The notes beneath the pieces were generated by a model. The model was not told where the DNA came from. It saw only the letters and a program-made list of their open reading frames with translations, and did no database searches. A program made the position numbers and the translations under genes. DNA of 64,000 bases from Bryobacterales bacterium KBS 96 (lineage in GTDB: Bacteria; Acidobacteriota; Terriglobia; Bryobacterales; Bryobacteraceae), in NCBI GenBank assembly GCA_000381625.1, contig KB906767.1, forward strand, positions 3,491,304 to 3,555,303. Direction: 5' to 3'. Positions 2,435 to 4,944 of the stretch are shown in pieces. Each line of letters opens with the position of its first letter. The first letter of the stretch is position 1.

Positions 2435-3010
2435 ATGGTCCTTTCCGATGTAGATATCCGCCGCTATATGCAGGCGGGCAAGATCCGAATCTCGCCGGAG
2501 CTGCCGCCGGAACAGTGGGGGAGTTGCTCGGTCGACTTCCGCCTCGGCGCGGAATTCAGCGTTTTCGAGCATAGCCGACACCCCTATATCGACCTGCGCG
2601 AGAAGGGCGCCATCCAGGACATCATGTCCACCGTCGTCGTCAAGCCGGGCGAGGCGTTCATACTCCAGCCTCGCGAGTTCGCGCTAGCCATTACTGACGA
2701 AACTCTCGAGCTCGACGACGATGTGCTGGGTCGGCTCGAAGGAAGATCGAGCCTGGGCCGGATCGGCATCATCGTACACGGCACCGCAGGACTTTTCGAT
2801 CCAGGCTGGCGCGGAAAGGCCACGCTGGAGCTGAGTAACCTCGGCCGCATGCCCGTCGCGCTGTATCCTGGCATGCGCATCTGCTCTTTTACCTTCGAGC
2901 AGCTATCGTCGCCTGTTTCCGTGCCTTATTACAAGAAGGCCGGCAATAAGTACGCCGGACAAACGTCGCCGCTTGCGAGTAAGCTGACTGCCGAAGTGAG
3001 TAAAAAGTAA
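2435..3010 (+). CDS. dcd: dCTP deaminase
   Basis: Deaminates dCTP to dUTP in the cytosol, feeding dUMP and dTMP synthesis. At 191 residues it has the usual length for the family. The signature core EGRSSLGRIGIIVHGTAG, followed by DPGWRG and LELSN, matches the dCTP deaminase/dUTPase fold, with the active-site Glu in the TLELSN segment. GxRICSF and the C-terminal Y..QTSP are also typical. Whether it is monofunctional or also hydrolyses dUTP cannot be read safely from sequence alone; a separate dut next door suggests monofunctional. It converges on dut, with 17 bases between stop codons. Confidence 0.93.
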   Translation: MVLSDVDIRRYMQAGKIRISPELPPEQWGSCSVDFRLGAEFSVFEHSRHPYIDLREKGAIQDIMSTVVVKPGEAFILQPREFALAITDETLELDDDVLGRLEGRSSLGRIGIIVHGTAGLFDPGWRGKATLELSNLGRMPVALYPGMRICSFTFEQLSSPVSVPYYKKAGNKYAGQTSPLASKLTAEVSKK

Positions 3011-3027: not shown

Positions 3028-3459
3028 TTACCTCCCGGAGGAACCGAATCCACCCGTTCCTCGCGCCGAATCCGCCAGTTCGCCTTCTTCCCACTCGACC
3101 GCCTCATAGCGCGCCACCACCATCTGCGCAATCCGGTCGCCTGCATGGACCTGGTACGGCGCTTTGCCTAAGTTCAGCAGAATGACTTTTAGCTCGCCGC
3201 GATAACCCGGATCGATGGTTGCCGGCGAGTTCGGCAGAGTGATGGCGTGTTTCAGCGCCAGGCCGCTCCTCGGCCGGATCTGCACTTCGTACCCGGTTGG
3301 AATTTCGAGCGCCAATCCCGTGGGAACGACATGGGGGACGTTCGGCTCGAGAAGTGCCGCCTCGAGTGCGCGGACGTCCATGCCCGCGTCCTCCAAAGGG
3401 CCATGCGCATATTCCGGCAAGAGAGCATGTGGATGAAGCTTGTTGATGCGAATCTTCAT
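3028..3459 (-). CDS. dut: dUTP diphosphatase
   Basis: Hydrolyses dUTP to dUMP and pyrophosphate, keeping uracil out of DNA and supplying the thymidylate synthase substrate. The 143-residue protein has all five trimeric dUTPase motifs in order: [15 protein letters not shown], the catalytic-Asp loop [20 protein letters not shown], and the C-terminal [11 protein letters not shown] arm. The start MKIRIN at 3459 is chosen because motif 1 then falls at the normal distance; the frame is open further upstream but that extension would overlap the thyX start. It is divergent from thyX, with 27 bases between starts. Confidence 0.95.
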
Positions 3460-3486
3460 GATTGAATCCGCTATGATAGCGACTTC

Positions 3487-4944
3487 ATGGCTGCTGTTCC
3501 TGGACAGAGTGCTGCGAGTCCCCTCAAACGTGTTTTCACCGTGGCGCCAATGCCCCCGGAAAAGATGGCGTACGCGCTCGCGCGATACAGCCGCTCTCCC
3601 GATTCGATCGTCGATTCCGTTGAATGGGTGCGCACACATGACTCCGCCAAATTCTTAGAAAGCTTTTACTTTCAATATGGCCACGCATCCATAGCCGATC
3701 TGGGGCATCTGGCCGTTTGCTTCGAAGGCATCTCGGAACTTGCTGCGATTGAAATTGAAGATGAGCAGCTTTGGGACGGGCAGGCGCGCAGCTCCCGTTA
3801 TCAGGACTTTTCGCATTCAAACGTCGTCGTCCCCCCGGAGCTTCCGGAAGACCAGGTCGAAATCTACCAGGACGCCGCAAACGAGTTGATGTCGGCCTAT
3901 CGCGCCATACACGAGAAGGCCTTCCAGAAGCTCTGTGTAAAGCTGCCACGGCCGTCCGACATGAAGCCGGAGACGTATCAACGCAACCTGCGGGCCCGCG
4001 CCTTCGATGTGGCTCGTTACCTGTTGCCGCTCGCAATCCCGACCGGTGTGGGCCAGGTCACCAGTATCCGTTCGCTCGAACGGCAGATTCGCCGCCTGAA
4101 AGCGTCGGACTTTGAAGAGGTGCGCGATATCGCGGACGAGCTTGCGACAGCGCTGGCACAGCCCGCGGATTGTGTTTGGGATGCGGCGCTGCCGAACGAT
4201 CCACTGGCGCCAACGCTCGCGCACCATGCCGGTCCGGATGAATACGCAAGGAAGCTTCGGGACACCCTGCAACTGTGGGCCGAACAGAATCTGCCACCGC
4301 GCCGGGATGTTACGGCGAAGCCGGTCGTCTTGCTGCAGCCGACGGATCATATTTGCGATATTTGCGCGACGCTTTTGTACCCGGTCACCGACCGAAGCTA
4401 TCGCGAGTTGTACCATCTCGCAAGCAGTTGGTCGAAAGCGCAGCGAATCGAACTAATGGACCTGGCGGTTCAGGGCCGCGAGCGCCGCGATGAACTGCCG
4501 CGGCATTTTCGAGGCGCACCGTATGTCTTCGACATCATCATGGATATCGGAGCGTACCGCGATCTGCACAGGCATCGCCGGTGCCAGCAGTTCCGCCAGG
4601 ACTACACGAACCGGCTCGGCTATGAAGTGCCGGCGCTAGTGGAAGAGGCCGGGTTACTTCCGGAATACCAGCAAGCGCTCACTGCAGTCGATACCGCACT
4701 GGAAAAGGTCGCCCCACCAGCAGCGCAGTATCTGCTTCCTTTCGCCGCCCGTTCGCGGTTCCTGTTCAAAATGGATTTCGCGGAACTTGAATATATCTCG
4801 CGATTGCGTAGTGGGGTGAAAGGTCATTTTTCATATCGGAAGATTGCCTGGGAAATGAAACAGGCTCTCGATGAGGAGGATCCATCGCTGGGCGCTCTGG
4901 TTAATGCCACGCCGCCGTGGATAGAAGATCCATTAACCCGTTAA
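3487..4944 (+). CDS. thyX: Two-domain FAD-dependent thymidylate synthase (ThyX)
   Basis: Methylates dUMP to dTMP using methylene-tetrahydrofolate and FAD. At 485 residues it is about twice the length of ordinary ThyX and contains two ThyX-like halves. The first has YGHASIADL at about 64-72 and SSRY at 102-105, but where the RHR of the RHRx7S signature should be it reads D92-E93-Q94. The second has R362-H363-R364, but Asp at position 372 where the signature Ser belongs. Both halves keep an ARYLLP/AQYLLP helix. Tandem ThyX proteins of this size are known in several phyla; the sharing of the motif between halves is my reading. With dcd and dut it forms a dTMP supply cluster. The ATG at 3487 has a weak ribosome site. 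Confidence 0.85.

Follow-up and report, generated by a model that had tools for sequence, protein, structure and literature searches.

A tandem ThyX protein with its catalytic motif divided between two homologous domains, a predicted split-site FAD-dependent thymidylate synthase

FAD-dependent thymidylate synthase (ThyX) is essential to its hosts, has become a target for drugs, and has an active site assembled from several subunits. In the M. tuberculosis (Mtb) enzyme, subunit A holds FAD and part of dUMP through the RHR sequence (residues 95-97) and R199, subunit B holds FAD through S71 and R190, and subunit C contributes R87, S105, R107 and Y108, the last three of which hold dUMP and shield the reaction (PMC6514825). 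The same two-sided site is found in PBCV-1 ThyX (PMC3498832). In the T. maritima enzyme, the conserved His53 lies on a third monomer, beside Tyr91 (PMC11940539), and R174, the equivalent of Mtb R199, activates dUMP (PMC8316439). The canonical ThyX motif is RHRxxSxxExSxRY (RHRx7S). Most Chloroflexi were reported to possess a ThyX with a domain duplication, uncharacterized at the time (Valas and Bourne, 2009; PMC3224940). A duplication of this general kind has also been described in the monomeric herpesvirus dUTPases, where a homo-oligomer became one long chain and its motifs were shared out along it (PMC8961515).

Our analysis showed that the window, i.e. the whole 64,000-nucleotide stretch of Bryobacterales bacterium KBS 96 DNA considered here, encodes a tandem ThyX on its plus strand (positions 3487 to 4944), with predicted split-site thymidylate synthase activity. 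The open reading frame is uninterrupted by stops and specifies 485 residues followed by the stop codon; its start is uncertain, as the ATG at 3487 has no clear Shine-Dalgarno sequence and the real start may differ. This single frame contains two matches to the Pfam Thy1 domain (PF02511; 110.9 bits for the 485-residue protein against a cut-off of 24.8), and in a profile search of its own genome each half exceeded the Thy1 cut-off separately. Half 1 (3526 to 4191, + strand), putatively the dUMP side and the bearer of roles B and C, is joined to half 2 (4336 to 4905, + strand), putatively the FAD side (role A), by a linker of residues 236-283 (4192 to 4335, + strand), delimited by alignment, in which the model places helices at residues 242-247 and 252-268. 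The AlphaFold2 single-chain model of the full protein, built from 49 family members, has a mean pLDDT of 89.9 and a pTM of 0.89, and half 2 modelled alone reaches a pLDDT of 91.6. Half 1 aligns with Mtb ThyX (3gwc) over 198 residues (VIA-align Z 13.3, rmsd 2.7; hmmsearch E 2.1e-21); the highest score of half 2 is with C. glutamicum ThyX (3ge9; Z 15.5, 163 residues, rmsd 2.0), and it also matches 3gwc by hmmsearch (E 2e-12). These fold matches to solved ThyX chains therefore identify both halves as ThyX domains. A direct comparison of the halves confirms their mutual homology (hhalign 95%, E 1.9e-8), and the tandem ThyX that an earlier note had read from the letters of this DNA is thus borne out by domain matches, folds and mutual homology alike.

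The catalytic motif is divided between the two domains. In half 1 (residues 92-105; 3760 to 3801, + strand), RHR has been lost and replaced by DEQ (D92-Q94), and SxRY is kept as S102 (3790-3792), R104 (3796-3798) and Y105 (3799-3801). In half 2 (residues 362-375; 4570 to 4611, + strand), RHR is kept (R362-R364, 4570-4578), SxRY is lost and D372 (4600-4602) stands at the position of the motif Ser. The complete motif is thus present in neither domain, and only the two halves together supply all of it; the earlier note had described this division exactly. The Glu/Gln position of the motif is occupied by alanine (Ala100) in the window protein and in its one relative from the same family. Outside the motif, H66-A67-S68 of half 1 (3682 to 3690, + strand) corresponds to H69 and S71 of Mtb ThyX, H66 being the equivalent of T. 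maritima His53. R177 of half 1 (4015 to 4017, + strand) corresponds to Mtb R172 (T. maritima R147) and is absent from half 2, and R195 of half 1 (4069 to 4071, + strand) to Mtb R190, the FAD-binding arginine of role B. The dUMP-activating arginine, Mtb R199 (T. maritima R174), has its counterpart in half 2, as R441 (4807 to 4809, + strand).

A scan of GTDB genomes recovered 560 relatives or more. Among the best 80, Acidobacteriota predominate, and the others are from Chloroflexota, from Bacillota (Tumebacillus, Sulfobacillus), from candidate bacteria and from archaeal bins. Many of the relatives come from metagenome bins, which may be misnamed. Among 49 aligned relatives with 20-62% identity, S102, R104, Y105 and R177 are invariant in half 1, and R362, H363, R364 and R441 in half 2. 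We also aligned 154 tandem proteins, encoded in genomes, on plasmids or by two phages, 136 of them belonging to the group of the window protein and 18 to a second, very divergent group (loci L164-L183 except L175 and L181; about 90-130 bits to the window's family). Conservation was counted from this alignment, some half 2s carrying an earlier RHR string outside the motif. SxR[YF] is present and RHR absent in half 1 of all 154 proteins, SxRY is absent from half 2 of all 154, and RHR is found in half 2 of 153, the exception (L189) reading RHNR. In the second group, the consensus is [AS]HPxxNSEQxSQRY for half 1 and QRHRxTPxSRP for half 2, with the polarity unchanged. A further 46 loci from phages and IMG/VR viral contigs, among which the L189 record appears again, obey the same polarity, so that SxRY in half 1 and RHR in half 2 are shared by about 200 relatives of bacterial, archaeal and phage origin. 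The alignment of two-domain ThyX proteins that the earlier note had called for thus yields the same split throughout the 154, and this constancy, together with the 46 additional loci and the invariance in the 49 relatives, indicates that the split is not the chance decay of a single gene. RHNR in place of RHR in half 2 recurs in tandem ThyX proteins of Bacillales phages and plasmids (L189, L209, L216, L220, L224, L229-L231 and L235).

Each half lies above the Pfam cut-off by itself and retains part of the motif, as would also be expected if one half were a dead structural domain and the other formed, alone, a whole ThyX site that has diverged and uses substitute residues. We consider this very unlikely: neither half has residues of all the roles, what each has lost is what the other keeps, and the complementary losses occur in two divergent groups as well as in phages. 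Moreover, S102, R104, Y105 and R362-R364 would not stay invariant in a dead half.

To assign the roles, both halves of all tandem proteins were placed in one alignment with 30 single-domain ThyX proteins and the sequences of the Mtb and T. maritima enzymes. As a control, the residue set lies within one domain in 30 of the 30 single-domain proteins, five of which read KH[RQ] for RHR. In tandem ThyX, the role A residues (Mtb R95, H96, R97 and R199) are fixed in half 2, and half 1 has the residues for roles B and C fixed (H69, S71, S105, R107, Y108 and R172). Within the window's group, S105, R107 and Y108 are present in half 1 of all 136 proteins, S105 and R107 being nearly absent from half 2, and half 2 retains R95 and H96 in 135 of the 136 and R97 in 133. 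The S71 column is Ser in every half 1 (136/136) and never in half 2, and the R190 column is Arg in 123 of 136 half 1s and Ala in 93 of 136 half 2s. The second group gives the same picture for S105, R107 and Y108 (18/18 half 1s), for R95, H96, R97 and R199 (18/18 half 2s) and for R172, which is confined to half 1; in this group the S71 position is Thr, and Arg is missing at R190. The split is unclean for R199 in the window's group, where the half 1 column is also Arg in 106 of 136 proteins, with an ambiguous one-residue gap. R87, a role C residue in Mtb, is unconserved in this half 1, and likewise in T. maritima. This partition agrees with the ThyX structures (PMC6514825) and supports the suggestion, made in the earlier note, that the RHR part would serve FAD and the Ser/Arg part dUMP.

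Judging from these residue patterns and from the genomic setting, the window protein is very probably the FAD-dependent thymidylate synthase of its host (dUMP to dTMP), composed of two subfunctionalized ThyX domains, with two chains forming a pseudo-tetramer that contains two whole sites. The order and folds of the domains, the conserved partition of residues and the gene neighborhood are observed, whereas the assembly, its count of sites and its catalysis are inferred. Half 2 would play role A, binding FAD through RHR and positioning dUMP with R362 and R441. Half 1 would play roles B and C, its H66, S68 and R195 serving the FAD/folate side and its S102, R104, Y105 and R177 the dUMP side. The dimer would be a D2-like assembly containing each half twice; with A being half 2 and B and C being half 1, the fourth D2 position (D) would be half 2. 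Both sites centered on a half 2, that at D included, would then be complete, each combining this half 2 with a pair of half 1s, and the remaining sites, centered on half 1, would be dead, lacking the residues of all three roles. Since roles B and C fall to separate copies of half 1, a lone chain would be unable to complete a site. The earlier note had envisaged one composite site per pair of halves; each polypeptide would indeed carry the parts of one site, and the wording is refined here in that the predicted site takes three domains and hence two chains.

The dead sites of this predicted assembly could have acquired another use. The RHR position of half 1 has taken on a new consensus, DEQ (84/136) or DEP (15/136) in the window's group and AHP or SHP in 16 of the 18 proteins of the second, where drift would leave variety, and the two degenerate sites might, in addition to the main explanation, bind a nucleotide or folate ligand and regulate the two active ones. 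We regard this addition as unlikely, since half 2 varies widely at its SxRY position, the dead sites would be without residues of the three roles and the new consensus may be structural. In a broader and still rather improbable version, tandem ThyX would be an ancient, widespread and obligately asymmetric class that gave up half the sites of its ancestral tetramer and, as the new consensus would hint, reused the dead ones, either to bind an allosteric ligand or to secure how the halves pair.

The genomic setting bears on the function of the protein. Profile searches of the host genome found no thyA, no second Thy1 gene and no TK1-type thymidine kinase gene (tdk), and only a weak DHFR match, under the cut-off. 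Such a weak DHFR match is usual for ThyX organisms. Directly upstream of thyX lie dcd, encoding the dCTP deaminase that makes dUTP (2435 to 3010, + strand; TIGR02274, 186.4 bits against a cut-off of 92.8), and dut, encoding the dUTPase that makes dUMP (3028 to 3459, - strand, start at 3459; NF001862, 161.5 bits against a cut-off of 103). The dut gene is divergent from thyX, with 27 bases between the two start codons (3459-3487), and the divergent pair is repeated in a relative from the same family (L005). Two Thy1 matches occur in 202 of 396 genomes of the phylum, a number that includes at least two intein-interrupted single-domain genes and one genome (G316) that is probably not tandem. A strong ThyA match is present in none of these 202, compared to 96 of the 194 others (Fisher p 1.7e-37, a statistic that ignores shared ancestry). 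The lack of a detected thyA or thymidine kinase gene, the single Thy1 gene, the adjacent dcd and dut and the exclusion of thyA across the phylum together suggest that tandem ThyX is almost certainly the working thymidylate synthase of the host. The protein scores below the cut-off of the NCBIfam ThyX equivalog model (TIGR02170; 40.3 against 87.9 bits), and ThyX relatives with UMP activity exist (PMC5954106), which could be taken to mean that it is a relative acting on a different substrate, in the way that PolB acts on UMP. The host genome, in which no further thymidylate synthase or TK1-type thymidine kinase was found, the dcd and dut neighbors and the thyA exclusion in the phylum make this a remote prospect. 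Further upstream, the region 1159-2371 of the window contains a tyrosine integrase whose N- and C-terminal parts are in overlapping frames (1159-1836 and 1614-2360) and which is possibly frameshifted; this region ends at a tRNA-Ala(cgc) gene (2296-2371, - strand) and has the appearance of an integrated element's end.

Tandem ThyX is also carried by phages, namely as gp020 of Ma-LMM01 and gp50 of Tunturi_5, the latter adjoining a dUTPase and a dCMP deaminase. Split-motif proteins of this kind are present in large phages (Microcystis and Vibrio phages, and IMG/VR contigs of up to 470 kb; L185 and L190-L235), several of them annotated only as hypothetical. Where a viral locus matched only half 1, a separate half 2 gene was looked for, and split genes were rejected: each such locus is one long frame whose half 2 has diverged, with the exception of L236, an ordinary single-domain ThyX. 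Inteins or intein-like inserts were seen in the wider family. A tandem ThyX gene in another genome of the phylum (L035:100-2745, genome G009) has an intein-like insert of about 330 residues in half 1, between GHA and SVAEH, directly before the FAD-contacting active-site Ser, with a weak LAGLIDADG match; inteins in essential proteins are often found at places of this kind. Two single-domain ThyX genes (L181:2-1927 and L175, - strand) have an HNH-type intein inside RHRxxS, between KHRI(A/G) and the Ser. In a quick tree, each half of each tandem group forms one clade, and the duplication and the split therefore predate the spread of each group. A constraint joining the half 1s of both groups is not rejected and gave a better likelihood than the free tree (p-AU 0.957), and the half 2s of both groups fall together without support (44). 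It is possible that the two groups have a single origin.

The tandem form is the sole thymidylate synthase detected in its host genome and is common in its phylum. It resembles canonical ThyX (PF02511; M. tuberculosis 3gwc, T. maritima 1o26) in the fold of each half, in having the main catalytic residues once per polypeptide and in its genomic role, exclusive with thyA. It differs in having two domains per chain, each without part of the motif; canonical ThyX has four identical sites, whereas the tandem form is predicted to have two active and two dead ones per tetramer equivalent. Such a divided site in linked, specialized domains would be a clean natural case of subfunctionalization inside an oligomer, and would allow the FAD side and the dUMP side to be altered separately, which is impossible in a homotetramer. 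We found no description of the divided ThyX motif in the open-licence literature searched; the duplication was already noted in 2009, and the split site appears to be undescribed. The duplicated Chloroflexi proteins, as presented in the ThyX passages of that study, have the same architecture, and Chloroflexota relatives (L107, L126 and L132) are part of our set; those passages do not mention a split motif (PMC3224940). The monomeric herpesvirus dUTPases likewise derive from a homo-oligomer with inter-subunit sites that duplication turned into one chain, its motifs distributed along it (PMC8961515). Their fold and reaction are different, and their whole site lies in one monomer, whereas that of tandem ThyX is predicted to take three domains from two chains.
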